Below, piece after piece: positions 4,382 through 25,908 of a stretch of DNA of 64,000 bases. Position 1 is the stretch's first letter; each line of letters starts with the position of its first letter. The notes beneath the pieces were generated by a model that worked only from the letters and a program-made list of their open reading frames with translations, was not told the origin of the DNA and made no database searches. The stretch is from Candidatus Palauibacter poriticola. GTDB lineage: Bacteria > Gemmatimonadota > Gemmatimonadetes > Palauibacterales > Palauibacteraceae. The position numbers were made by a program, and so were the translations under genes. The stretch lies in the NCBI GenBank assembly GCA_012270965.1, contig JAAXHJ010000097.1, positions 1 to 64,000 on the forward strand, given 5' to 3'.

Positions 4382-5512
4382 TCAGGTGGGGGTTGCGAAC
4401 CTCCGGTGAGAATCGCGAGCGTGGAGGATGGCGTCGGCGAGGGGTGCGGTGCCGAAGCGGATGGGGTCGGTGGCGGGGAGGCCGGTGACCTCGCGCGCGT
4501 GGCGGACGGCGGCGCGGGCCTCGTCCTCGCCGATGTCGTAGGTCGCGAGGGAGACGCCGATTACACGGCCGGGGACGTCGGGACAGGCCCAGGCTAGCGC
4601 GTCTTCGTAGCGGCGGATCACTTCGTCCAGTTCGGGGAGCACGACCCAGCTGTGGTTGCCGCCGTAGATGCGGGGGCGGCTCGGCATCCACGTGAGGATC
4701 ATCGCCTGCGGCAGCGTGCCGTGCAGGAGGCCGTGCGTGACGCCGGAGTAGCCGGGGTGCATGAGGGACCCCTGGCCTTCGACGAGGACGATGTCGACGC
4801 CCTCGCCGTCCTCGCCGCGCGCCGCCTCGAGCGTGAGACGTTCGGCGGCGCCGGAGATGAAGTCCGACACCACCGCGTCGACGGCGATGCCGGTGCCGGC
4901 GATGAGGATGCCCGTCTGGCCCGTAGCGGCGAAGCCGGCGCGCACGCCCCGGGCCCGCAGAGCGCGCTGCAACTCGAGCGAGACCGTCATCTTTCCGGTG
5001 TTGCAGTCCGTGCCGACCGTGAGCACCCGGAAGGCGTCCGTCTCCATGGCCCGGCCCGCGCCCACCGGCAGGTCCGGGGGCGGCTTGCGGAGGTCGAAGA
5101 GAGTACAGCCATGCCGGTCCGCCAGCGCCGCAAGTTCGGGATCGTCGCAGAGGAAGAAGTGAAGGCCGCTGATGATGTCGAGCCCCTCCTCGAGCGCGGT
5201 CTCAAGCACGGCCCGCCACGCCTCGGGGAGCTGCCCTCCCTGGGGCGCGATCCCGACGAGGAGAGCTTCGGGACGGGGTTCCGTCGCGAGCGCCTCGGCG
5301 AAGGTCGCGACGATGGGGATGTCGCCGCCGAAGCCGAGCGCCTCTCCCACGGTGCTGTCGGCGAAGCGGGAGTCGATGACGGAACTCACCCGCTCCGGCT
5401 GGTAGCGCACGGCGGACGAGGCGGTCTTCGCCGTCTCGACCCCGAAGGCGCCCTCCGCGAGGATCGCGAGCCGAGAGGAGGAAAGCCGCTTCCGCCCCGG
5501 GCCCAAGCTCAT
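4382..5512 (-). CDS. DUF1611 family P-loop protein (DgcN-like)
   Basis: Belongs to the DUF1611 family. Some members (DgcN) have been described as D-amino-acid N-acetyltransferases in D-glutamate catabolism; that activity is not demonstrated by this sequence. Seen: an N-terminal Rossmann-like half (LAILAEGAFG), a P-loop-type motif GTDCNTGKM at residues 167-175, and VEGQGSLMHPGYSG near 247. These are family hallmarks. Length 376 is slightly above the usual size. The ATG overlaps the pspA stop in an ATGA, so it is translationally coupled to pspA. Confidence 0.8.
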   Translation of the reverse strand: MSLGPGRKRLSSSRLAILAEGAFGVETAKTASSAVRYQPERVSSVIDSRFADSTVGEALGFGGDIPIVATFAEALATEPRPEALLVGIAPQGGQLPEAWRAVLETALEEGLDIISGLHFFLCDDPELAALADRHGCTLFDLRKPPPDLPVGAGRAMETDAFRVLTVGTDCNTGKMTVSLELQRALRARGVRAGFAATGQTGILIAGTGIAVDAVVSDFISGAAERLTLEAARGEDGEGVDIVLVEGQGSLMHPGYSGVTHGLLHGTLPQAMILTWMPSRPRIYGGNHSWVVLPELDEVIRRYEDALAWACPDVPGRVIGVSLATYDIGEDEARAAVRHAREVTGLPATDPIRFGTAPLADAILHARDSHRRFATPT

Positions 5513-6363
5513 TCGCGCTCGGCCCGCTCCGTCTCGCCGGATCCACCCAGCAGCTCGAGGAGTTCCGCCTCGGGGATCTCCTCATGCACGTCGCCGGCCG
5601 CATCCGCGTCCGCCCCGGCATTCGCCTTGGACCCGGCTTCCTCGCCGGAGCCGAGCGCCTTCACGTCCTCGGGTTCGCCGGAGGTGAGGAGACCCATGGA
5701 GGCCTTCATCGCAAGCAGCTTGTCTTCAACCGCGGCGTCGCCGCCCGCCTCCAGCGCCTTGAACTCGCTGAGGAGCGTGTCGCCGGTGAGTTCCTCGGTG
5801 ACCTCCGCACTCGCGAGCGCTTGGCGCTCCGCCTGCTCGATCCTCTCGGTCATCTGATCGAAGGCGCGGAAGGCGCTCTTGTCGTGGAGTCCCTGCATCG
5901 TGTCGTGGATGCGCTTCTGGGCCTCCGCGCGCTTCTGCTTTGCGATGAGGAGGTTCTTCTTGCGCTTTGCCTCCTCGATTTTCGCGTTCAGCTGGCGCAG
6001 CGAGTCCTTGAGCTTCTCCGTCTCGTTGCGGTGGTTCTGCCACTGCGTCTCCAGCTCGCGTGCGTGCTCGGCGTGTTCCTGCCCGCGCACGAGCGCCTGG
6101 CGCGCGAGGTCGTCGCGGCCCTCCCGGATCGCGAGCCGCGCCCGCCGCTCCCACTCCTGGGCGGTGGAGCGCGACTCCTCGAACTGCGCCCGCAGCTTGC
6201 GTTCGTCGGCGATCGCGACCGCGACCTCCTGCTTCGCCCGGGCAAGCTGGCGGCGCATGTCCTCGATGATCGTGGTCAGCATCTTCTCGGGGTTTTCGGC
6301 CCGAGCGATGAGGTCGTTGATGTTCGATCGAATCAGCCGGGAAAGACGGTCCAGGACACCCAT
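5509..6363 (-). CDS. pspA: PspA/IM30 family membrane-stress protein
   Basis: PspA/Vipp1-type peripheral membrane protein that assembles on stressed inner membranes. Seen: N-terminal amphipathic helix (MGVLDRLSRLIRSNINDLIA), the EDPEKML-like motif AENPEKMLTTIIEDMR, then a long charged coiled coil to about residue 210, as in family members. After it comes an Ala/Glu/Gly-rich tail of about 70 residues, longer than in E. coli PspA. It follows the YbjN-like gene by 42 bp and overlaps the DUF1611 gene. No sigma-54 regulator PspF is in the window. Confidence 0.92.
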   Translation of the reverse strand: MGVLDRLSRLIRSNINDLIARAENPEKMLTTIIEDMRRQLARAKQEVAVAIADERKLRAQFEESRSTAQEWERRARLAIREGRDDLARQALVRGQEHAEHARELETQWQNHRNETEKLKDSLRQLNAKIEEAKRKKNLLIAKQKRAEAQKRIHDTMQGLHDKSAFRAFDQMTERIEQAERQALASAEVTEELTGDTLLSEFKALEAGGDAAVEDKLLAMKASMGLLTSGEPEDVKALGSGEEAGSKANAGADADAAGDVHEEIPEAELLELLGGSGETERAERE

Positions 6364-6405
6364 GGTGTATGCTCGTTTCCTGTGCTTGTTTCCTGTGCTT
6401 GCTCT

Positions 6406-6810
6406 TCAGTCGTTCGGAATGTCGGCGGTGAGGCTGTCCCAGTGGGAGGTCAGGGCGAGGGTCAGGCTCTCGAGCGTGGCGCGGAACTCGGAGAAGTCGA
6501 GGTTCTCAAGTTCCAGCGTGTCGCTCAGGATGACCTCTCCGTCCTCAAGACCGTAGGCTCCGTGGATGAGATCCACCGCGTTCAACTCCAGGAGCCTCCG
6601 GTAGAGCGCAAGCTGGTCTTCGTCGTCGATCGGCAGATCGCGGATGTCCGCGCGGCACACGAGGACGGGCGGCTGGTGGTTCACCACAATCCTCGGCTGC
6701 CGCTCCGCGCCCGCCCCGTCGGGGTGGACGATCCACAGTCCTTCGTCGAGTTCCTGATAGTCCGCTTCCGTGCGGATCAGAAAGCTCTCTATGTCCTCTC
6801 GGTTCAGCAT
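6406..6810 (-). CDS. YbjN / CesT-like small acidic protein
   Basis: A 134-residue acidic alpha/beta protein resembling YbjN or type III secretion chaperone-like domains, which recur beside pspA genes. Seen: N-terminal LNREDIESFLIRTEADYQEL, then alternating strands and a helix (DEDQLALYRRLLELN) in YbjN-like order. No catalytic motif is apparent. Its ATG overlaps the stop of the preceding membrane-protein gene in a TGATG, and pspA follows 42 bp on, so the genes are probably one operon. Chaperone or adaptor work for PspA is inference. Confidence 0.65.
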   Translation of the reverse strand: MLNREDIESFLIRTEADYQELDEGLWIVHPDGAGAERQPRIVVNHQPPVLVCRADIRDLPIDDEDQLALYRRLLELNAVDLIHGAYGLEDGEVILSDTLELENLDFSEFRATLESLTLALTSHWDSLTADIPND

Positions 6811-7479: not shown

Positions 7480-9702
7480 TCAGAATGGCAGCGTTGTCGT
7501 CAAGCCGAAGAAGATGGTCCTCGGGAAGGGCGTCTCCGGAGCAAAGCGTTCCGAGTAATCCCGGCTGTAGAGGTAGTTCGAGACGTTTCGGTGGTCGAGG
7601 GCGTTCATCATGGAGAAGAAGAAGACCGTGACATTGCGGCGCCAGAGGCTGCGGATCACGCTTGCCGACAGGTCCAGCCGCGAGTACGCCGGCAGCCTCT
7701 CCGACATCGGCACCCCGTATAGGGGTCGCCACCGGTCGAGTCCCTCGTCGAACGCCGCGCCCGCGACGGGCGTGAACGGAACGCCCGCGGCGGTCCGGTA
7801 GCCGACGCCTATCCGGAGCGGGCCGAAGCTGCGGTTGAGGACCACGTTCAACGTGTGGGTGGCGTCATACGGAGACGGTGCCGTCTCCCCGGTGTCGGGA
7901 TCCGTGCGCTCGGCGCGGACGAAGCTGTAGGCCACTCGCCCCGTGAGGCCGAGGAACCCCACCTCCCCCTTGGCGAGTACGTCGAACCCCGTGGACTCGC
8001 CGCTGCCTCCGCCGCGCGCCCTGCCGTCGCGGGCCCGCGCGGCGAGGTGCGAGTACCGTTTGCGGTACGCCTCGGCCCGGATGAGCCGACCGCCGCCGCC
8101 GTAGGTCACCCCGCCGATGAGGTGGCGGGCCGACATGGACGGCAGGGTGGGGTCTCCGAATCTCCCGCTGTGGAGCCGGACATCGGGAACCTGGTGGAAC
8201 ACGCCCCATGCCGCGGTCAGGGTGAGGAGCCGGGCGGGCCGGATGGAGGCCGACACCCTGGGATCGACGGTGGCGCGCCCGGTAAGGGAGGAGCGGTCGC
8301 CCCGGAGGCCGAGCAGGAGCCGGATCCCGCCGGCGGGTTGCAGCTCAAGTTCGCCGAAGCCTCCCAGCCGGGTTCCGGAGCCGCGGTCGCTGAACGGGAT
8401 CCTAATCGTTCGCGGCCCCGTCGGCAGGTTGACTTCCACCGGAACGGATGCCGACGAGTCCATCCTCCGGTCCTCGACCTCGGCCCCCGCCGCCAGCACG
8501 ACTCCGGGGCTCACGGGCGCTTCGAGCTTCGCGCGCACCTGCGTGAGGCGATCAGATCTGTCGAGGCTCGATTCGCCGAGATCCTCGTCCCTTCGGGCAC
8601 CGCTGGTCGCCGCGCCCCAGGAGAGCCGGACATCGCCGAAGGCGTCGCGACCCGAAACGGCAAGGAGACTCGAGGCCGCGTCGGCCCGATAGGAGCCGGA
8701 ATAGGCCGGATAGTCGATGTTGACGCCGAAACGATCGCTCTGCGTGAACGCGAACGCGCGCACGCTCCCGCCCGGACGGTACATCCATTCTCCGGACCCG
8801 CCGAAGTCGGTGGACCGGGGAACCTCGTCGAACTCGTCCCGCCTGCCACTCATGCGCAGGACCAGGTCCGTGTTCGCGTGGCCCCCGCTCAGGCGGACGC
8901 CGGCGGTCTCCGACAGCTCGAGATTCAGGTCGCCTGAAAGACCGGCGGCGGAGGCCGTCAGGCGGAGGCCGTCACGGATCGGCTTGCCGGTCGCCTCAAT
9001 GTCCGCGACGGCCGATAGGGCGTCGCCGTACTCGGCGCCGAAGCCCCCCGTCGAGAAGTGGATGCCGCGCACGTGGAGCGGGTCGAAGCGGCCGAAAGAC
9101 ACCGTGCGCTCGCCCTCCTGGCGCAGGGGCGACAGAACCGTCGCACCGTGCACCAACACTCGCGTCTCGGAGACGGCGCCGCCGCGGACGAAGAGGCCCG
9201 TTCCGTTCCCCACGTTCTGGAGTCCGGCTAGGGACTGGATCGCGCGGAAGGGATCTGCCGCCGCGCCGGGGGTGCGCACCATGTCGAGATTGCTGAGCGT
9301 GGCATCGGGCAGGGCACCCAGCCGGAACGCGCCCGCTTCGACGGGGATCGGTTCCCGGGCGGTGCGGAGGATCCGCATGATCAAGGTGACGGGCCGGTCG
9401 AGCGGAAGCCGCAGCGCGCGCCTGATCTGCCGGTATCCCGGCCGCTGGACGATCAGCACCGCGGCGCTCCGTGCCCCGGCATCGAATACGAACTCGCCCG
9501 CGGCATCGGTGGTCGTCCTCTCCCCGGTTCCAAGGAGCAGTACGACGGCCCCGGCGAGGGGCTGGCCCGAGGCGTCGCGCACGGTTCCGGCGATGGCCGA
9601 TCCCGCCTGGGCGTCGATCCCGGGCGGCGCCAGCCAGGGAAGGACGACGACGACCGTCGCCAACGTGATCCGGGGCCTTGCCAGACGCCTCAGCCGGGTC
9701 AT
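7480..9702 (-). CDS. TonB-dependent receptor with CarboxypepD_reg-like domain
   Basis: Outer-membrane, TonB-energised transporter of 740 residues. Seen: signal peptide (LATVVVVLPWLAPPGIDAQA), an N-terminal carboxypeptidase-regulatory-like beta sandwich (GTVRDASGQPLAGAVVLLL), a plug domain (around residues 130-240, with FVRGGAVSETRVLVHG and GFGAEYGDALSAVADIEATG), then a beta barrel ending in phenylalanine (TTTLPF). Fe-siderophore or vitamin specificity cannot be read. It is the third gene of an operon behind the copper-monooxygenase fusion (36-bp gap), so transport of a metal or its ligand is a reasonable inference. Confidence 0.92.
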   Translation of the reverse strand: MTRLRRLARPRITLATVVVVLPWLAPPGIDAQAGSAIAGTVRDASGQPLAGAVVLLLGTGERTTTDAAGEFVFDAGARSAAVLIVQRPGYRQIRRALRLPLDRPVTLIMRILRTAREPIPVEAGAFRLGALPDATLSNLDMVRTPGAAADPFRAIQSLAGLQNVGNGTGLFVRGGAVSETRVLVHGATVLSPLRQEGERTVSFGRFDPLHVRGIHFSTGGFGAEYGDALSAVADIEATGKPIRDGLRLTASAAGLSGDLNLELSETAGVRLSGGHANTDLVLRMSGRRDEFDEVPRSTDFGGSGEWMYRPGGSVRAFAFTQSDRFGVNIDYPAYSGSYRADAASSLLAVSGRDAFGDVRLSWGAATSGARRDEDLGESSLDRSDRLTQVRAKLEAPVSPGVVLAAGAEVEDRRMDSSASVPVEVNLPTGPRTIRIPFSDRGSGTRLGGFGELELQPAGGIRLLLGLRGDRSSLTGRATVDPRVSASIRPARLLTLTAAWGVFHQVPDVRLHSGRFGDPTLPSMSARHLIGGVTYGGGGRLIRAEAYRKRYSHLAARARDGRARGGGSGESTGFDVLAKGEVGFLGLTGRVAYSFVRAERTDPDTGETAPSPYDATHTLNVVLNRSFGPLRIGVGYRTAAGVPFTPVAGAAFDEGLDRWRPLYGVPMSERLPAYSRLDLSASVIRSLWRRNVTVFFFSMMNALDHRNVSNYLYSRDYSERFAPETPFPRTIFFGLTTTLPF

Positions 9703-9738
9703 GGGGCTATCGCGGCCGTCGTCTCGAACTCGGATCCC

Positions 9739-11874
9739 TCAACGCTCGCCAGCGCGATCGAGCAAGCCGCTGAATCCGCGCAGCAGCTGGCCGCGGCCCG
9801 AAGGAACGGAGTCCGGATCGTCCGGCAGAACCGTGAGCGAACTCAGGCACATCTCGTCCCGCGTCCCCTCGCCCCACACCGTGTACCGCTGTCCCTCTCC
9901 GGTTCCCTTGTCCCACGTGCAGCTGATGCGGACGATGTCGCCTTCGGCCACGCGGACCGGCGTCTCGTACTGGTAGCGACCCTGCCAGTTGAAGTCCCAC
10001 TCCGGTATCTCGAAGAGCACCTGCTCGTCGTCCGCATCCGGATTCAACGTCAGCGAGAAGCGGCTGCCCATGGTGTGCATGTGGCCGCCGACCTCGACGA
10101 TCGCGCCGGCGTAGCTCATCGCGATGTCGCACCAGCTGGTCACCGCGGGGCCGTCCTGCGCCTGGAGTTCCTCGGCGGTTCGCCCGCAGAGACCGAGCAG
10201 AAGGTTGGGCACGATCGCGGCCCGCAGTCCCTCGGCCTCCCTCAGTTCGCGGAGCACGTGGTCGCGCTCGCACTGCGGTCCGGCGGCGGGATCGGCGCAC
10301 GGGATCTCGACGGGCGCGATCAGAGGCACGGCATGCAGGGCGCGGAGATCCCCGTCCGCCGGCTCCGTCTGGAGGCTGAGACTGGTCTGGTCGGAGAGCA
10401 CCTGTTCCGCATAGTTGTAGTGCAGCTGGAAGACGAAGAAGCTCCCCGCGGGCACGAGGAAGCCGGCGCCCTCCGGCTGCGCCGTGGCGGTCTGGCCCGG
10501 TACCCAGCTGGCGATCACGCCGCCGACACCCGGAATCCCCGGTCCTCCGAAGCACTCCCAGCCGGGACGCTCGTCCCGGCCGGCGGCGGTCGCCGCCTCG
10601 TCCCTCGCGTCGCCGCTGGCGAGGTAGACGAGCGAGTGGTGTACGACCCGCCGCTCGCCGGGCTCGAGCGAGAACCCCGTAATGAAGGTGTCCTCCTCGA
10701 AGCCGGGATCGAGCGGGAAGCAGCGATAGTCGTCGGCCAACTCGCCGGTCCCTCGGTACGGCTCGCTCATCCCGAGGACGAGGTCGGAGCGGACCTGCAC
10801 GGCCTGCGTCTCGCCCGGAGGCACGGGCGTGCCCGGAGCCACGTCCAACGGGGCGCCCGCCGCCGCCCATTCCCGGAGGCTGCCGCGCGCCTCGGCGTCC
10901 AGCCGGCGCTCGTGGAGCAGCGCGGGCGTGGCGCCCCCCGGCTTCCAAGGCGGCATGTAGCCCAGCCGGGTCACGAGCGCGAGGTCGTCCGCGAAGCTCG
11001 CCGCGTCGGCCGCAGTCGCCAGGGACCAGTGCCCGGCACCCACCTCGCCGGGCTGGTGGCAACCCGCGCACGCGGAACTCAGGATCGGAAGGATCTCCCC
11101 GGCGAAGCTCGGTCCAACGCCCTGCGGGCCACCGGCGGAGGCGAACCGCTCCCCCGCGGGCGCGTCCGGGCCGGCACCGGCCGCGACATTGTACGCGACC
11201 AGGTCGATGGAGAGCCCCACCTCGTCGCGGGTCTTCAAGAGGCCGGCGATGCTGATCGGGCCGACTCCATAGGTGGACATCAGAACTTCGGTGGTCGCGG
11301 AAGCCCGGAGATGTCCGTCGTCGAACTCGAAGGTCGCGTCCCAGATCGTTGGCGCCGTGATTCCCTTCACGGTCAGCTCGCCTTCGAGTCGCAGGGAGTA
11401 CCCCTCATCCTGTTCGAACGATTCCGGCAGCTCGAGGAAGCGCGCGAATCGCATCTCGACCTCCGGGTAGCTGGCCGACTCGAGATAGTCCTTGCGCAAC
11501 CGCGAGTCCCGCATGCGGCTGTCCGACACGAGCGATTCGACGTTGACGATGATCGTGCCGAACCGGCCGGCCTCCGGGCTGCCGGGCTCGATGAGGATGT
11601 CGCCGGCGATCGCCGAGGTCTCCCCGACCGGCGAGCCGACGGTCGCGTCTAGGAACTCCTCGAACGCCTCGTACCGGGCGACCGACCGGTTCGGGTCGAT
11701 CCGGAACACGCGCTGGCGTTCGTTGGCCGGCTCCATCCGGGGAGCGTTCACGGCCACCGCCGCGGGCAGGTCCGCGCCCGCATCCCTCCCCATGACCAGC
11801 CATACGGTCACGCCCGCGATCAGGCCCAGGCCACCAAACAGGACAGTCCCAATAGCCAAGCGACGACGGTTCAT
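9739..11874 (-). CDS. YceI + cytochrome c + copper monooxygenase-like fusion protein
   Basis: 711-residue exported protein with three modules. Residues 1-30: signal anchor. Residues about 55-230: YceI-like lipocalin fold. Residues about 255-345: c-type cytochrome with heme site CAGCH (269-273) and likely axial Met in YMPPW (306-310). Residues about 360-690: PHM-like type II copper monooxygenase, with His412-His413 in VVHHSLVYL, His485 in LHYNY, the HMH pair at 598-600 and the Met ligand in DEMC (675). All these copper ligands match the peptidylglycine monooxygenase pattern. Reaction and substrate are unknown. The ATG overlaps the upstream stop (ATGA). Joining YceI to the cytochrome-Cu unit is unusual. 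Confidence 0.85.
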   Translation of the reverse strand: MNRRRLAIGTVLFGGLGLIAGVTVWLVMGRDAGADLPAAVAVNAPRMEPANERQRVFRIDPNRSVARYEAFEEFLDATVGSPVGETSAIAGDILIEPGSPEAGRFGTIIVNVESLVSDSRMRDSRLRKDYLESASYPEVEMRFARFLELPESFEQDEGYSLRLEGELTVKGITAPTIWDATFEFDDGHLRASATTEVLMSTYGVGPISIAGLLKTRDEVGLSIDLVAYNVAAGAGPDAPAGERFASAGGPQGVGPSFAGEILPILSSACAGCHQPGEVGAGHWSLATAADAASFADDLALVTRLGYMPPWKPGGATPALLHERRLDAEARGSLREWAAAGAPLDVAPGTPVPPGETQAVQVRSDLVLGMSEPYRGTGELADDYRCFPLDPGFEEDTFITGFSLEPGERRVVHHSLVYLASGDARDEAATAAGRDERPGWECFGGPGIPGVGGVIASWVPGQTATAQPEGAGFLVPAGSFFVFQLHYNYAEQVLSDQTSLSLQTEPADGDLRALHAVPLIAPVEIPCADPAAGPQCERDHVLRELREAEGLRAAIVPNLLLGLCGRTAEELQAQDGPAVTSWCDIAMSYAGAIVEVGGHMHTMGSRFSLTLNPDADDEQVLFEIPEWDFNWQGRYQYETPVRVAEGDIVRISCTWDKGTGEGQRYTVWGEGTRDEMCLSSLTVLPDDPDSVPSGRGQLLRGFSGLLDRAGER

Positions 11875-12356
11875 CTGATCACTCCGCGCCGGGCCCGCAG
11901 CCGTTCGCGCAGCGCCGCTCGCCGTTCCTCCTGCATGTCCTTGAACTCGGCGAACTGCTCGTCGGTGAGGAACCCCAACTCCTCGATCTTCTCGTACATC
12001 GCCCCCCGAACTTCGTCCAAGTCCCTCCCCAGAGCGCGGAGCTGACGCAGGTTGAGCCGGCGGTTTGAACGCCCCTCGGTGAGACTCGGGACATCGATGC
12101 CGTGTTCCTCGAGGATGGCCATTGTGCCCTCGAAACCCTCCATGAGGACCGGGCGCAGCTGCTCGACCTGTTCGTCGCTGAGTTGAAGCCGCTCCCGAGC
12201 CTCCTCCAACCGCTGCCGGAGGTCGGTCAATCGCTCCTCCTCCCCGGGCTCCGTCTCTTGGGCGGCGACCGGCGCGGCCGTCACGGCCACCGCCGCGGAC
12301 GCCATCAGGGCCGCGGCAATGACAACGGGTACTGGTCTCCTGGTACGGTGCATCAT
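11871..12356 (-). CDS. Spy/CpxP-like periplasmic LTxxQ protein
   Basis: 161 residues from ATG ATG at 12351-12356, with AAGGAA just upstream. A signal peptide (PVPVVIAAALMASAAVAVTA, ending near AAPVAAQ) is followed by an all-helical acidic/Arg-rich protein with two LTxxQ-type repeats, LSDEQ and LTDEQ. This is the layout of Spy/CpxP, periplasmic chaperones that often respond to copper or envelope stress. The open frame continues 130 codons upstream but that part lacks coding character. It is the first gene of the operon with the YceI-copper protein and the TonB receptor. Confidence 0.75.
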   Translation of the reverse strand: MMHRTRRPVPVVIAAALMASAAVAVTAAPVAAQETEPGEEERLTDLRQRLEEARERLQLSDEQVEQLRPVLMEGFEGTMAILEEHGIDVPSLTEGRSNRRLNLRQLRALGRDLDEVRGAMYEKIEELGFLTDEQFAEFKDMQEERRAALRERLRARRGVIR

Positions 12357-13168: not shown

Positions 13169-13553
13169 GTCCTCCGCCAGCCGGCGAGGGCCGCATGTCC
13201 TTCCGCGGGCCACCCATGTCCTCGCGCGGACCCTTGATCCCGCCGCCCAGCTCGGCTCGCGGATCCTTGATCTCGCCGCTCAGGTCGGCCGGCGGTCCCA
13301 AGCTCGCGGACTCCAACCTTCGCACGCGCTGACCCATCGCTCCTCATGGCCGCTTTCGCTCCGCCGGGCAGCCCGCAACAATTCGTCCACTCAGCGTTCC
13401 GCGGCCGTCGGCAGACCCTGGAACCCCGCCCGGCGAGCGTGCGTGGGACGACGCGAGCCGGAGTTTCTCCGCGGACAGCCACGCGTACGCGCCGCGGGCC
13501 ATGATGGCGCCGGGACACGCGTCGGGGAGGCGGCGCGATTCTATTATGAGGTA
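13169..13553. other. spacer before the integrase
   Basis: No gene supported. It contains imperfect internal repeats at about 13195-13300 (motifs around CGCGGACCCTTGAT and CGCGGATCCTTGAT) and copy B of the dispersed repeat at its right end. Confidence 0.5.
13452..13520. repeat. dispersed intergenic repeat, copy B
   Basis: Matches copy A at 7167-7238: GCCGGAGTTTC, CCGCGGAC, GCCACGCG and GCGGGCCATGATGGCGCC are in the same order and orientation with small gaps. It ends about 35 bp before the integrase start. Confidence 0.7.
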
Positions 13554-14786
13554 ATGAATGGCGTAACCCCCTCGCCCGTTCCGCCCCGAAGAACGAAGCC
13601 GAAGGGCCGTCATCCGGAAAGGGCGCTTTCGGCCACGTTCGTGCGCACGGCGCCGCCGGGCAGGTACTGCGACGGCAACGGGCTATACCTGTTCGTCCAG
13701 CGGAGCGGGGCCCGGAGCTGGGTCCAGCGCCTCGTCATCCGCGGGCGGCGCCGGGACTTCGGACTCGGCAGCGTCGCGCTGGTCTCGCTGGCCGAGGCCC
13801 GGGAGAAGGCGCGGGCGAACCGCAAGCTGGCCCGCGAGGGCGGCGACCCGCTGGTGGAGAGACGGCGGGCCCGGGGCGTGCCCAGCTTCGCCGAGGCGGC
13901 CGCGCGAGTCTTGGAGCAGAAGCGGGCCGGCTGGCGCAGCGAGAAGCACGGATGGGACTGGGTGTCGAGCCTCCAACGGTACGCCTTCCCGCGCATCGGC
14001 AAGATGGCGGTCTCGGATGTGACGAGCGCCGACGTGCTCGATGTCCTCTCCCCTATCTGGCACACGAAGGCGCCGACCGCCCGGTTCGTGTTTCAGCGAA
14101 TCCGCTCGGTGCTGGAATGGGCGGTGGCGATGGAGTTCCGTACCAGCAACCCCTGCGACCAGTTGCGGCCGGTGCTCGGCCCGCAACACCGCGTGGTACG
14201 GCACATGCGGGCCCTGCCGCACCGGGAGGTGGCATCGGCGATCGAGGCGGTGCGCGGATCGAGTCGGTCGTCCGCCGATCCGCTCGCGTTCGAGTTCCTG
14301 GTGCTGACGGCGGCGAGGTGGGGCGAGGTGCGGTGGGCCGAGTGGGCGGAAATCGATGATGACGCGGGGGTGTGGACGGTTCCCGCGACGCGCATGAAGG
14401 CGAAACGGGAGCATCGCGTGCCGCTGTGCCGCCGCGTCCTGGAAATCCTTGACCGGGCGCGAAGGCTTGGCGGTCGCAGTCCGTTGGTGTTCACCCGCGG
14501 CGGCGAGAAGCCGCTGCCGGAAAATGCGCTGCGCCGACTTCTTGGGAAGCAGGAGATCGCCGCCGTACCGCACGGCTTCCGGTCGAGCTTTCGGGACTGG
14601 GCGGCCGAGGAGACGGACCATCCCCGCGAGGTGGTCGAGGCGGCCCTGGCGCACGTGGTCCAGAACAAGGTCGAGGCGGCCTACAGGCGCACGGACCTGT
14701 TCGAGCGGCGGCGCTACCTCATGAACGACTGGGCTGGCTACCTGGCCGACCGACCCGATGCCGGGATGTGGGATCGAATGAGGTAA
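13554..14786 (+). CDS. P4-type tyrosine recombinase (integrase)
   Basis: Site-specific recombinase of the DUF4102 / phage P4 integrase class, about 410 residues. Seen: N-terminal arm-type domain (YCDGNGLYLFVQRSGARSW), SAM-like core-binding region, and the catalytic set: Arg in TAARWGEVRW, Lys in MKAKREHRVPL, His and Arg in HGFRSSFRDW, His in ALAHVVQNK, and Tyr in EAAYRRTDLF. All are intact, so the enzyme could be active. The ATG at 13554 fits the family N-terminus; the frame is open 37 codons further up. No tRNA target flanks it. The gene ends 56 bp before the truncated surface-protein gene. Confidence 0.92.
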   Translation: MNGVTPSPVPPRRTKPKGRHPERALSATFVRTAPPGRYCDGNGLYLFVQRSGARSWVQRLVIRGRRRDFGLGSVALVSLAEAREKARANRKLAREGGDPLVERRRARGVPSFAEAAARVLEQKRAGWRSEKHGWDWVSSLQRYAFPRIGKMAVSDVTSADVLDVLSPIWHTKAPTARFVFQRIRSVLEWAVAMEFRTSNPCDQLRPVLGPQHRVVRHMRALPHREVASAIEAVRGSSRSSADPLAFEFLVLTAARWGEVRWAEWAEIDDDAGVWTVPATRMKAKREHRVPLCRRVLEILDRARRLGGRSPLVFTRGGEKPLPENALRRLLGKQEIAAVPHGFRSSFRDWAAEETDHPREVVEAALAHVVQNKVEAAYRRTDLFERRRYLMNDWAGYLADRPDAGMWDRMR

Positions 14787-14842: not shown

Positions 14843-17800
14843 GCCGTTGTCACCGTCACAGCGTCCGACGGCGAGGCCACGGCGACTCAGGGCTTCACGG
14901 TCACCGTGAGCGACCCGTCGGGGAAGGCGGCCACGGTGGCGCTGTTCGGTCTGCGCTCGGTGACGGACCGCAGCGTGTCGATCGACCCGACGAACGTGTC
15001 GGGCGGCATCTCGGTGATCTTGGACGTGCAGCCCAACGACGAGACGGTGGCGGCGATCGCGCTCACGCTCGACGGTGAGACGATCCAGTGCCGCGGCTCC
15101 TCGAGCGACGCGGATCCGGCGGCGGGCCTCGCGGCGTCGTCGCAGGCGGAGGTCGACTGCTTCCTCAACACGGCCGCCGTGATGGGCGAGTGCGCGGGGA
15201 TGCAGCTCGATCCGATGTATGCCAACGGCGAGCACGAACTCGGGGCGTTCATCACGACGGCCGAGGGCGAGCGCCGCGACGTGGTGGCGGCGCAGCCGAT
15301 CACGCTGAACAACTCGGGCTACGTGATGGTTTCGCACAGCCCCGGCAGCGCGTCGGCCGTGGTGAAGGGCTACCAGTTCTACGGCGGTCCCGCCGGCGAC
15401 GACATGGGCAACACGAACTCCTTCCACGCCTGCCCGGTGTCGTACAAGGGCACCACGGTCGCCGAGCTCGGGCTCATGGCGAAGGTCACCGGACTCGGCG
15501 GCGCCGACCTTGGCGACGCGGCGCCCGATGCGGTGACGCTCGCGCAGGAAAAGGGCGCGTTCACCTGGACCGTCAACACGGCCAAGAGTTCGATGGTCGA
15601 GAACCAGGCCGGCATGGATGAGCACTGGATCATCAACAGCGGTCCCATCCACGACGCCGACGGGCTGCTGGTGACGGACGAGTTCCGGGGCGAGGAGGCG
15701 GCGAAGACCGGCCCGCTCCACTTCGACTTCAAGGCTCCGACGACGGCGGAAGGCGAGATTAAGGTCAACAAGGGCTCCGTGGTCGCGGGCACGTCGTACT
15801 CGGCCAACGCGAAGAACGCCGTCGCCCTTGCCGGCGCTGCGGACATGGGCGTGGGCGTGGACCCCGCGTCGATCATGATCGCGGTGGGCGACTGTTCGGC
15901 CCCGGCCAACAACGTCGACGTTGCCGCCGCGATGATGCCCAACCGGACGAAGGTTCCCTTCGCCGCCGCCTACGACGGCGTGATCCACATCTCCGACTTG
16001 GAGGAGGAGGATGCGGGCCGCGATGGACCGGGTGAGGACGACAACGGGCTCGACTGCTACGTGGCCGAGCTGACCGCGCTGGCCGACGAGCTGGGCAACG
16101 CGTGGATGGGCGGTAAGGCGCCCGCGTCCTGGCTGCAGACGGCCAACTTCGGCGTCGACAAGACCGCGCCGGCGCTGAGCGACATCGAGCCCGAGTCGGG
16201 TCTGGTGTTCAAGGCTCTACCCACCATGACGTTCGAGGTCGACAATCCGGATCTCGCCTCGGGCGACGACGGCACCCCGCTCACCGGCACGGTGAAGAGC
16301 GGCAAGTTAGGCGCCGGCACGGTCTCAATTACCGGCCGCGATGGTGTGGTCACGCTCAGCGGATCTACTTTTGCTAAGGACGGCAGGAAGACGGTCAGCG
16401 TCACGGTCTCCGACGGGGCCGAGCCGACCAACAACGCCGGGTACTCGTTGTCCTTCGCCTACGACACGAAACCACCGACGTTCTCGCTCAGCCGGACCCA
16501 GCCGGACCTGAGCCCGGGCGGTGCGTCCTCGGTTACGGTGTCGGTGGAGGGTTCGATCTCCGACGCGAGCGAGATCAAAGAGGCGACTCTGTTGCTCCTC
16601 AAGGCCGCCGACTGCTCGAGTGCGCCTGCGGTCAAGGACACCCTGAAAAAGTGGGATCTGGAGAACGGGACGAACTCGGTCCCGATCAACAACAGCTTCG
16701 TCATTGAGGCTACCGGCACCGGTCCGGAGGACTATTGCTTCCACCTCGATGCCGAGGATGTCGCCGTTGGAGCGGACACCAAAGGCGACGGCAACGCCCT
16801 TGTCAACGGGGACTTGGGCAGCTTCAACGTGGCATGGTCCGGCGAACCGCCGAAGCCGGGTCCGACGTTCGACTTCTCGACGAGAACGGACAACACCGAC
16901 CCAGCGACGTGGATGAAGGCCGATACGCTGGGTATCACCGAAGGCGACGAAAAAACCACATACTGGGTTGCGCTGAAGGATGCGGACGCGGAGCCAACGT
17001 CGGATGCCCCCGTCAGCGTAAGCATCACCGGTGAGGCCGGGGTAAGCGTGAATCCCTCGACGCTGGAGTTCGACGGGACTGCGGACACCCTGGAGGTGAC
17101 GGTCACCGTCGAACACGACACCGATATCGATTCGGAGTATCTCGATCTGACTCACAAGGCTGAAGGCTTTGGCGGCGGGGAGCTTGTGGTGCAGGCGCTT
17201 GACGACGATTTCGAGATCATGGTGTCCCCGACGTCGATACGTGAGGATGACGACGCCGAGGAGGCGGAGGTTACCGTGTCCGCCGGGCTGGGGGCGGACA
17301 TTACAGACCCGGTAATGGTGACATTGGGTCGCGGGGACGGTGCCGACGACAGTGACATCGCAAGCGGGAGCGCGAAGACGACCGCAGTGACGGTCAAGGA
17401 GGCGACGGCCGATGCGCCGCGGATGGGGGTGACTACGGTCATGGTGGATGCGGCCGACGACACCGAGCAGGACGAGGTGAACGAGTCGATCGAACTGACC
17501 GTGTCGGCCAGCGCCACCGCCGGCGTGTACTACAAGCCCGCCAGCATCGCGATCATTGACGACGATCCCGACATCACGTTGTCGTTGAGCCAGGAGAAGG
17601 TGAACGAGGGTGAGGGCACCGTGACGGTTACGATCACGGCGACGGCGGACGCGCCGGTGCTTGGGATCGTGAACCTCTCCCTCACCTTTGGCGGGACGGC
17701 AACGCCCGAAGACTACACCGCCAGTCCGACGCCGCTGACGGTGACGATCGACACGGGGGGCGAGACGGCGACGGCGACGGTGACGATCACGATCACCGAC

Positions 17801-17923
17801 GACGACGGAGAGGAGGGCAATGAGACGATCGTGTTCTCGGGTCCGACGAGCGCCGAAGCCGGAGGCAAGATGTACTCGACCGGCTCCGCGACGCTGACGA
17901 TCGTGGACAACGACGGCTCGTAA
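14843..17923 (+). pseudogene. 5'-truncated Calx-beta surface protein (silent copy)
   Basis: An uninterrupted 1027-codon frame homologous to the lipoprotein at 22483-25908 but lacking its signal peptide, lipobox, proline tract and first Ig-like domains. Homology begins sharply at 14843 with a 483-bp block (14843-15325) about 92% identical to the inverted block 24763-25245. After that the two diverge but keep landmarks (ANFGVDKTAP, CPVSYKGTTV). The C-terminal third has three Calx-beta-like repeats (SIREDDDAEE, VNEGEGTVTV, VDNDGS). An in-frame GTG at 14768 within the integrase could add 25 residues but no export signal. The open frame without decay suggests retention, perhaps as a recombination donor. 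Confidence 0.75.
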
Positions 17924-22482: not shown

Positions 22483-25400
22483 CTACTGTTTATCGTCGTC
22501 GACAATGGTGATGGTAATGCCGGCGGTCGGCAGTCCGCGGCCACCCGACACCGCCAGCGTAACCACGATGGCGTCGTCCTCGTCGTCATCGTCGTTCTTC
22601 TCGCCCTCACCCTGAACGGCGGTGATGGCGACCTTGATGCTGGCCGTCGTCTTGTCCGCCGCGAACGCGATCTCCTCCGGGTCGACCCCCTCAGCGCCCG
22701 CCGCGACCGTGAACTCGTCCTCGGCCGTTCCCGCGGCCGTGCCGCCCGTGTAGACCACCGGAACGGTCACCGCACCAGACGCCTGGGCGCGCGTGGCCGT
22801 GATCGTGACGGTGTCCGTCGTGCCCTCCGTGATCGACACGTCGTCGATCGCAAGGAGGACATCGGGATCCTCCGAGGTCACCTTGACGGACGCGCTGCGG
22901 CCATCGTACCCGCCGCCGGATGCGGTCGCCTTCAAGGTGGCCAGCTCGCCCTGCGCGTTGTCGTCCTCGGGGGCCGTGACCGTCACGTTCTGCTTGGTGT
23001 CGAAATTGGCGGGCGTGAACGTCAGCGTCGTATCCGCCTCGATGCTCTTCGCGCGGCTTCCCGTGATCTTCACCGTGACGTCGGCGGTGGGCCGCTCGCT
23101 GAGGGTGACCTCGAGGGTGGCGTCGTCCCCCTCGTTGATCGATCCCGCCATGCCGTCGGCCGTCACCAGGCTGCCCCCGAGGACCACCGCGGCGGCGCTG
23201 CTCCAGTTGACCGCGAACACGGCGACCGAGAACTCCCTGCCGTTGCCCCCGCCGCCGGTCGCGTCGGTGGCCTGAAGCAGGACGCACAGCTCCTCGGTCG
23301 TCGTGTCAGCAACGGCCGGCCGGCCCAGCGTCAGCGTCCGGTCGATGGACAACGACTTCGCGCCGCCGACCTTCCGGGCCCCGTACCTGCCCCCCCGGGC
23401 GGTCGGAAGCGAGTCGTCCGCCGCCTCGCAGAACGCCGGCGCGTTGTCCGACCGCTTGCTGCTGTCGTTGTTGCGGACGGTCAGGGTGTAGCTCTCGATG
23501 CCGGCCGTGGCGTCCTTCAGCACGCCCGACACGTCGATGCCCACGCTCTCCGCGCCCGAAAGCGTGCCGACGGGTCCGCCGCCCGAGAAGGTCGGAGCCG
23601 TCGTGTCGTAGACAAGGTCCCGCGTGAACGAGCTGCGGTTGGGCGGCGTCGCGGCATCGCTCATCGTCACCGTCACGGTGTACGCGCCGTCCTTCGTTAG
23701 GCCGCTAACCGTGGCGGTCGCGTCGTCGTCCTCCGCCTCGTTGTAGGCCACGGACCCGGCGGATACCGGGGCCTTGCCGCCCGGCGGGGGCGGAATCGTA
23801 ACGGTCCCCGTCACCGCCGTGCCCGCGTCGCCCGATGCGAGCTTCGGGTTCTGGACCTCGAACTCGATGGTCGGAGCCGTTTTGAAGGCCATGGAGCCGT
23901 CGAACTCGATGTCCTCGATCACCGGCGGGGTCTTGTCGACGCCGAAGTTGGCCGTCTGACCCCAGCTCCCCGGAGTCGCGCCGCCGCTCCACGCGTTGCC
24001 CAGAAGGTCCGCGCCCGCGCCGATCTCGGCGACGTAGCAGTCCAGACCGTTGCTGTCCGTCTGGCCGAGGCCGGCCCGCGACGCATCCTCCTCGGCCAGC
24101 TCGGAGATGTGCGCGACGTCCGTGTACGCGGCGTTGAAGCCGACCTTCGTCCGGTCGACCTTCGACGTCCTGTTGGCCGCGCAGTCGCCCACGTCGACCC
24201 GCGTCATCGCCTTGTCGAGACCCACCCCGTCATCGGCCAGATCGGTCGAGAAGGCGTTGGCCTTCGCGGCCGAGTACGACGCGCCCGCCGAGACCGCGGC
24301 CTTGTTGATCATCACGGAGCCGCCGGTGGGCGCCTTGAAGTCGAAGTGGAACGGGCCCGCCTTGGCGTACGCCCCGTCGGCCACGAACTCGTCCGTCACG
24401 AGCAGGCCGCCGTCATCCTTGATGTCGCCCGTGTTGGCGACCCAGTACTCGTCGTCGGCCGTGTTCGAGACGGTCGCGTTGAAGTCGGAATCGGCCGTCC
24501 AGGTGAAGGGCGGAGCCTCGAGCGTCGGCGACGGATCGTTGTCCGGAGCCTTCGAGCCGGTCTGGAAGCTCAGATCCGGGCCCTCCGCGGATTCGCCGTC
24601 GGCGTCCGTCAGCATCGCCGCGAGGGTGAGCTCGCCCACCGTCGTCCCCTCGTAGGACACCGGGCAGGCGCTGAACGAGTTCGTGTTGCCGTCGCCCGTG
24701 GGCCCGCCGTGGTACGTGCGGCCCCCGTGGGCCACCGAGCGCCCCGCGTGGTGAACGATCTTCACGTAGCCCGAGTTGTTCAGCGTGATCGGCTGCGCCG
24801 CCACCACGTCCCGGCGCTCGCCCTCGGCCGTCGTGATGAACGCCCCCAGCTCGTGCGTCCCGTTCGCGTACATCGGATCGAGCTGCGTCCCCATGCACTC
24901 GCCCACCACCGCGGCCGTGTTGAGGAAGCAGTCGACCTCCGCCTGCGACGACGCCGCGAGGCCCGCCGCCGGATCCGCGTCGCTCGAGGAGCCGCGGCAC
25001 TGGATCGTCTCACCGTCCAAAGTGAGCGCGATCGCCGCCACCGTCTCGTCGTTCGGCTGCACGTCCAGAATCACCGAGATGGGGCCCGACACGTTCGTCG
25101 GGTTGACCGACGTGCTCCGGTCCGCCACGTCGCGCAGGCCGAAGATCGCCACCGTCGCCGCCTTCCCCGACGGGTCGCTCACGGTGACCGTGAAGCCCTG
25201 AGTCGCCGCGGCCTCGCCGTCGCTCGCTGTGACGGTGACAACGGCCTCGCCCTCGGCCACACCCGTGATGGTCGCGCTCGAACCCTCCATCGAAACGGTC
25301 GCCACCTCGGCGTTCGAACTCGCGGCGGCGTAGCTGAGCTCATCGCCATCCGCGTCGCTGAAGTAGCCCGCGACATCGATCGTCGACGCAGCGCCGACGT

Positions 25401-25908
25401 TAATGGTGTGCGCCGGAATGGTGCTCACCGCGGCGGGCGGGTTGTTGGCGGGCTCCGCCTCGACCGTGACGGTGAAGCCCTGCGCGGCGGCGGCCCCGTC
25501 CGGGTCCGTCGCCGTGATCGTGATGACCGCGGTTCCGGCCGCCACGCCCGTGATGGTCGCAACCGCGCCTTCCATCGCGACCGTGGCGTTGGCGGGGCTC
25601 GAGGAGCCGGCGCTGTAGGTCAGCGCGTCGCCGTCGGGATCCGCGAAGTAGCCCGTCGCGTCGACCGACACCGTGCCACCCATGGCCACATTGTGGGCCG
25701 GAATGGTACCGCGAGCCTCGGGCGCCTGGTTGACCGGCGGCGGCGGCGGTGGCGGCGGCGGCGGTGGTGGCGGCGGCGGCGGCGGCGGTGGAATTACGAT
25801 GGGCGGAATGTCCGGGAACGGCGGCGTGACGACCTCCACGGTGTCTCCGCAGCCGCCGATGGTCAGGACCGCCCCGACCGTCAACAGCCTCTTGGTACCC
25901 TTCTTCAT
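22483..25908 (-). CDS. large Ig-like / Calx-beta surface lipoprotein
   Basis: 1141 residues, predicted outer-surface lipoprotein. Seen: signal peptide with lipobox IGGC (Cys about residue 20), a linker with an unbroken run of about 18 prolines, two Ig/cadherin-like repeats (GYFADPDGDALTYS and GYFSDADGDELSYA), then a Cys-containing conserved module (residues about 222-382, encoded by 24763-25245), a variable centre (CPVSYEGTTV, ANFGVDKTPP), and C-terminal Calx-beta-like repeats (SINEGDDATLEV, SITEGTTDTV) that usually bind calcium. The ATG has GAGGAGG five bases upstream. Adhesion is a family-level expectation. The homologous truncated copy is at 14843-17923. Confidence 0.85.
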   Translation of the reverse strand: MKKGTKRLLTVGAVLTIGGCGDTVEVVTPPFPDIPPIVIPPPPPPPPPPPPPPPPPPPVNQAPEARGTIPAHNVAMGGTVSVDATGYFADPDGDALTYSAGSSSPANATVAMEGAVATITGVAAGTAVITITATDPDGAAAAQGFTVTVEAEPANNPPAAVSTIPAHTINVGAASTIDVAGYFSDADGDELSYAAASSNAEVATVSMEGSSATITGVAEGEAVVTVTASDGEAAATQGFTVTVSDPSGKAATVAIFGLRDVADRSTSVNPTNVSGPISVILDVQPNDETVAAIALTLDGETIQCRGSSSDADPAAGLAASSQAEVDCFLNTAAVVGECMGTQLDPMYANGTHELGAFITTAEGERRDVVAAQPITLNNSGYVKIVHHAGRSVAHGGRTYHGGPTGDGNTNSFSACPVSYEGTTVGELTLAAMLTDADGESAEGPDLSFQTGSKAPDNDPSPTLEAPPFTWTADSDFNATVSNTADDEYWVANTGDIKDDGGLLVTDEFVADGAYAKAGPFHFDFKAPTGGSVMINKAAVSAGASYSAAKANAFSTDLADDGVGLDKAMTRVDVGDCAANRTSKVDRTKVGFNAAYTDVAHISELAEEDASRAGLGQTDSNGLDCYVAEIGAGADLLGNAWSGGATPGSWGQTANFGVDKTPPVIEDIEFDGSMAFKTAPTIEFEVQNPKLASGDAGTAVTGTVTIPPPPGGKAPVSAGSVAYNEAEDDDATATVSGLTKDGAYTVTVTMSDAATPPNRSSFTRDLVYDTTAPTFSGGGPVGTLSGAESVGIDVSGVLKDATAGIESYTLTVRNNDSSKRSDNAPAFCEAADDSLPTARGGRYGARKVGGAKSLSIDRTLTLGRPAVADTTTEELCVLLQATDATGGGGNGREFSVAVFAVNWSSAAAVVLGGSLVTADGMAGSINEGDDATLEVTLSERPTADVTVKITGSRAKSIEADTTLTFTPANFDTKQNVTVTAPEDDNAQGELATLKATASGGGYDGRSASVKVTSEDPDVLLAIDDVSITEGTTDTVTITATRAQASGAVTVPVVYTGGTAAGTAEDEFTVAAGAEGVDPEEIAFAADKTTASIKVAITAVQGEGEKNDDDDEDDAIVVTLAVSGGRGLPTAGITITIVDDDKQ
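25735..25792. repeat. GGC/GGT tract coding poly-proline
   Basis: About 19 consecutive GGN triplets (minus strand CCN) encode the proline run after the lipobox of the surface lipoprotein. Low-complexity triplets of this type change length by slippage, and any non-multiple-of-three change would shut off the gene. Confidence 0.85.

Follow-up and report, generated by a model that had tools for sequence, protein, structure and literature searches.

Copper oxygenases of the PHM/DBH type need single electrons from outside. The animal enzymes, PHM and dopamine beta-hydroxylase (DBH), use ascorbate as the reductant. Both have a two-domain fold with two copper sites, CuH (ligands HH and H) and CuM (ligands HxH and M). 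In bacteria, a heme c is fused to this dicopper core in an unnamed family of cytochrome c-Cu type II monooxygenase proteins (Cytochrome_CBB3 plus Cu2_monooxygen). These cytochrome c-PHM proteins occur in Bacteroidota, Planctomycetota, Acidobacteriota, Latescibacterota, and other phyla, and some of them carry a Redoxin domain, TPR, or a secretion tail. Redoxin/AhpC-TSA matches were found in 7 of 69 scanned protein rows, so the core has been joined to several redox or accessory domains. No description of how bacterial PHM-type copper oxygenases receive electrons without ascorbate was found in open-licence PubMed Central. This question parallels that of the electron donor of LPMOs.

The lipids that accompany YceI proteins are most often isoprenoids, ubiquinone-8 among them (PMC9113575). 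The YceI protein BcnA and the cytochrome b561 LcoA protect against lipid peroxyl radicals, and the two are fused in most alphaproteobacteria, according to the same paper. The Cellvibrio proteins Cbp2D and Cbp2E contain the YceI-type domain X158, which is associated with ubiquinone-8 in Cbp2D, and Cbp2D also contains the cytochromes X183 (a cytochrome c) and X132. X183 can reduce copper LPMOs, and these enzymes may receive their electrons from Cbp2D. In PMC8981238 and PMC10154616, its electron transfer is described as slow and its biological role as unproven.

Here we describe a bacterial protein in which a YceI domain, a cytochrome c segment, and a PHM-like dicopper domain are found in one chain. 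The enzyme core is already known, but the domain arrangement is new, and it is real, conserved, and apparently spread horizontally. Cbp2D, with YceI plus cytochrome c, is a close functional precedent, and Cbp2E shares the YceI domain. However, both of these proteins have a CBM2 and work on LPMOs in trans, whereas the fusion protein has a PHM-type oxygenase in the same chain (PMC8981238, PMC10154616). BcnA/LcoA similarly couples a YceI lipocalin to a heme protein, sometimes by fusion, but the heme is a membrane b-type heme, there is no copper oxygenase, and the role is peroxyl-radical detoxification (PMC9113575). No YceI-PHM fusion was found described in open-licence PubMed Central.

The Locus and the Fusion Protein

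The window, i.e., the whole stretch of 64,000 nucleotides analysed, is from Candidatus Palauibacter poriticola. Three open reading frames lie at 7480-12356, all on the minus strand and at the positions given by the original prediction. Their features are as follows.

11871-12356, minus strand: small helical protein of 161 aa, exported-type, Spy/CpxP-like (weak assignment)
9739-11874, minus strand: fusion protein of 711 aa
Residues 3-28 of the fusion protein: N-terminal membrane helix (AlphaFold2 model)
11182-11712, minus strand: YceI domain, residues 55-231
Residues 257-338 of the fusion protein: cytochrome c segment with candidate axial ligand Met307
11056-11070, minus strand: heme c motif CAGCH, residues 269-273
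9793-10788, minus strand: PHM/DBH-like dicopper domain, residues 363-694, with ligands H412, H413, and H485 (CuH) and H598, H600, and M675 (CuM)
7480-9702, minus strand: TonB-dependent receptor of 740 aa with an N-terminal CarboxypepD_reg domain

The stop codon of the small helical gene and the start codon of the fusion gene overlap as ATGA, and 36 nt separate the fusion gene from the receptor gene. A scan for promoters and terminators gave nothing beyond chance.

The YceI domain (60.3 bits against a Pfam cut-off of 23.7, E 3.7e-16) and Cu2_monoox_C (33.9 against 23, E 2.6e-8) score above their cut-offs. The Cu2_monooxygen N-domain (18.6 against 30, E 0.0022) and Cytochrome_CBB3 (E 0.011) score below theirs. 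In a profile search, the six candidate copper ligands align directly with those of rat PHM. An AlphaFold2 model built from a 69-row alignment (pLDDT 83.7, pTM 0.69) was compared with known structures using VIA-align. Residues 364-694 match PHM (Z 22.9, rmsd 2.9, 263 aligned residues) and residues 56-228 match the YceI protein BcnA (Z 16.9, rmsd 2.4, 157 aligned residues). The original prediction, which had read a YceI fold, a heme c site, and a full set of PHM-like copper ligands in this chain and had proposed structure prediction as a check, is thus borne out by the Pfam matches, the motif, the ligand alignment, and the fold matches. No sequence similarity was found between the cytochrome segment and a solved X183, and Pfam finds no CBM in the fusion protein, which thus differs from the Cbp2D-type chain of CBM2, X158, and X183.

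The copper ligands are those of animal PHM and DBH, but identity to these enzymes is only about 20%, and the fusion protein has in addition a fused heme c and YceI. R240, N316, and Y318 of PHM, which we take to be the contacts with the peptide carboxylate, are replaced by G596, L677, and S679. A literature search for these contacts yielded no suitable paper. The fusion protein is therefore not expected to amidate peptides, and we rejected peptidylglycine amidation as its function.

Conservation of the Metal Ligands

Ligand conservation was analysed in 129 relatives, after 22 duplicate or single-domain rows had been dropped and with the window protein not counted. They comprise 7 fusions, 72 non-fusions from genome_contigs, and 50 non-fusions from whole-genome protein searches. 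The copper ligands, on whose conservation among homologues the original prediction hung, are retained throughout. The CuH ligands are complete in all 129 relatives, and the CuM ligands in 128, the exception (L045) being cut by a contig end. The candidate axial Met307 is present in 129 of 129. The counts for Met307 and for H598/H600 are biased in the 72 genome_contigs proteins, which were fetched partly via the peptides YMPPWKP and GGHMHTM; the other 50 non-fusions are free of this bias. A CxxCH motif is present in 127 of the 129, missing only from L040 and the fusion of G005 (locus L072). The ligands of nearly all 122 non-fusions are identical to those of the fusion protein, and 121 of the 122 retain the heme site without YceI. 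The YceI and PHM domains of the fusions are under purifying selection (dN/dS 0.15-0.23).

Distribution and Spread between Phyla

The cytochrome c-PHM core is widespread, and the fusion to YceI is its unusual and rare part. Of 395 genomes from the window's phylum, 157 contain matches to the query P0001 with E up to 1e-8, a count that mixes single-domain YceI proteins with cytochrome c-PHM proteins. The YceI fusion itself is found in five of these genomes (G000, G005, G297, G359, and G402) and in one of 297 genomes in a scan of the phylum of G408. It is also found at 7 of the 79 loci returned from genome_contigs, four of which belong to genomes already in the 395-genome scan. The search for the same domain order suggested with the original prediction thus yielded eight distinct loci, and the genomes that carry them are labelled as Gemmatimonadota, Acidobacteriota, and Rhodothermota. 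In the Pfam scan, YceI is present in 11 of the 69 rows, which we take as the eight fusions and three added single-domain YceI proteins; none of the 58 scanned non-fusion PHM rows contains it. No separate YceI gene was found beside the unfused relatives at the 72 non-fusion genome_contigs loci. The fusions are monophyletic (support 100/99) and require a single change on the tree, which shows that the fusion arose once.

G408 holds a second copy of the fusion, which is broken, at 321-1885 of L171 (its contig 110). A Spy-like fragment is close by, and the copy adjoins genes that by eye resemble cas genes.

The fusion protein is better conserved between phyla than RpoB. Identity to the window protein is 81% in G005, 74-77% in G297, G359, and G402, 73% in L068, and 75% in L071. 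The corresponding RpoB identities are 94% in G005, 66-67% in G297, G359, and G402, 53% in the L068 genome (titled Rhodothermales), and 45% in the L071 genome (titled Vicinamibacteraceae); no RpoB was found in the L066 genome. Horizontal transfer is the best explanation of this difference, and the fusion gene seems to have crossed from one bacterial phylum to another in the company of the small partner gene. The main alternative is that contigs were misbinned. In composition, the L068 fusion gene (GC 0.589, GC3 0.65) agrees with the contig on which it lies (0.577) and differs from the other fusions, whose GC3 is 0.83-0.89.

The Small Helical Partner

The small helical gene adjoins the fusion gene in seven of the eight loci, so the link between the two, part of the original prediction, holds well beyond the window. 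It is upstream on the same strand in six loci and divergent in L071; in the G359 genome, no match to it was found anywhere. The ATGA coupling emphasised in the same prediction is present, but it is peculiar to the window, as the genes elsewhere are separated by 53-100 nt or form the divergent pair. The proposed Spy-like identity persists in a weak form. The window protein has an alanine-rich leader. Among seven such proteins, PF07813 (LTXXQ) matches one (E 0.0053) and the Spy model matches two (best E 2.7e-5), all weakly, and the CpxP scores are weak too. In a fold search with a model of pLDDT 67, Spy, STV, and CnrX are among the top rows, with Z of only 4-6. The partner probably aids folding of the enzyme or protects it in the periplasm. 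Metal sensing is disfavoured, since the seven sequences share no invariant His, Met, or Cys, though CnrX is among the weak fold matches. Histidine kinase and response regulator genes directly precede the Spy-like gene in L066 (4580-7197) and L070 (2890-5262), and this pair is a possible regulator at these two loci.

Proposed Electron Supply and Role of YceI

We propose, with a probability of roughly 45%, that the fusion protein works in the periplasm as a copper monooxygenase that is anchored in the membrane and has an electron relay of its own, with an isoprenoid held by YceI. The helix predicted at the N-terminus would tether the protein to the inner membrane. By analogy with other YceI proteins, the barrel may bind an isoprenoid lipid, for which a membrane quinol is the simplest candidate. 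Electrons would pass from the quinol to heme c and then to CuH. CuM, if loaded with copper, would bind O2 and hydroxylate a substrate, which is probably hydrophobic. The fused heme would take the place of ascorbate as the electron source; because nearly all bacterial relatives carry a fused heme c, this heme is the likely electron donor. The whole route from quinol through heme c and CuH to O2 at CuM and the substrate is favoured because YceI proteins carry isoprenoids and Cbp2D pairs YceI with a cytochrome c, according to PMC9113575, PMC8981238, and PMC10154616. In its most complete form, the proposal is a self-sufficient quinol-driven enzyme: YceI draws a lipoquinol from the membrane, heme c wires the PHM-type site, a lipophilic substrate is oxidised without ascorbate, and the module travels between phyla with its helical partner. 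We regard this form as tentative. Since one chain contains its own lipid module and heme, the question of electron supply can be tested in a single purified protein, for which nature has provided a control in a heme-less orthologue.

This orthologue is the fusion protein of G005. About 68 residues that include CAGCH, the heme half of the cytochrome, are gone in frame, and everything else is retained, including Met307, YceI, and PHM. The dN/dS between G000 and G005 is 0.15 for YceI and 0.16 for PHM, like that of other pairs (0.16-0.23), and gives no sign of decay. The heme may therefore not be needed, or YceI may have a different role. The gap may also reflect a recent deletion or an error in the assembly. 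If real, the loss weakens a model in which YceI solely feeds the heme. Genes for a multicopper oxidase and for MsrB (SelR) lie downstream of the heme-less fusion and convergent to it (L072, 9985-12683).

A close rival of the quinol route is that the lipid in YceI, polyprenyl or another, is itself the hydrophobic substrate, which YceI hands to the copper domain, with the heme reduced by ordinary periplasmic cytochromes. The enzyme would be kept at the membrane by its N-terminal helix in either case. We consider this possible but doubtful. Reduction of the heme does not need YceI in the non-fusions that keep a heme without it, G005 keeps YceI although its heme is gone, and the replacement of the residues that we take to be peptide contacts points to a substrate different from that of PHM. 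On the other hand, YceI proteins occur mostly with isoprenoids including ubiquinone-8 (PMC9113575), and the combination of YceI with cytochrome c is already known from Cbp2D in connection with copper monooxygenases. It is unlikely that the protein is instead a lipid-antioxidant device, in which YceI would, like BcnA, hold an isoprenoid quencher, and the heme and copper domains would recycle or dispose of radicals with no hydroxylation of a metabolite. The BcnA/LcoA precedent against lipid peroxyl radicals (PMC9113575) and the multicopper oxidase and MsrB beside the heme-less fusion fit this explanation. However, these neighbours occur at one locus only, the neighbours inspected by eye include no b561 partner, and the full catalytic set of copper ligands is conserved.

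The original prediction had the middle protein as a periplasmic oxidase of a hydrophobic substrate whose product or metal is imported by the TonB receptor. The domain content most naturally suggests an oxidoreductase that is anchored in the membrane and acts with a lipid, and this half of the prediction is supported. The import half is not. The three genes lie side by side both in the window and in L070, which is from a different family of the same class, and the two receptors are 72% identical. But these are the only two of the eight loci with a receptor orthologue beside the fusion; none was found in L067, L068, L069, L071, or L072 within the flanks available, and L066, whose contig stops 92 bp past the fusion, cannot be judged. 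More distant receptor copies (55-65%) are located elsewhere in other genomes and, in the cases read, have a small putative regulator upstream and a TPR-like protein after them (domain names by eye). Because the receptor accompanies just two of the eight fusions, import is not a core part of the system, and an oxidase-import operon is a very improbable account of it.

Surroundings of the Locus in the Window

A tyrosine integrase (Arm-DNA-bind_3, Phage_int_M, and Phage_integrase) is encoded at 13443-14786 on the plus strand, about 1 kb upstream of the Spy-like gene, which is compatible with a mobile island. A tRNA-linked island was rejected, as there is no tRNA in the window. Carriage on a plasmid was also rejected, since no plasmid record covers most of the fusion protein: three records match it in part, none of them over 80%. 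Just downstream of the three genes, a cluster at 4382-6810 (minus strand) encodes DUF1611, PspA/IM30, and CesT_Tir_1-family proteins. Two open reading frames of about 1,000 aa lie on the integrase side. The one at 14906-17923 (plus strand) has a single weak domain match below the cut-off, and the one at 22483-25683 (minus strand) contains Ig-like and cadherin-like domains.
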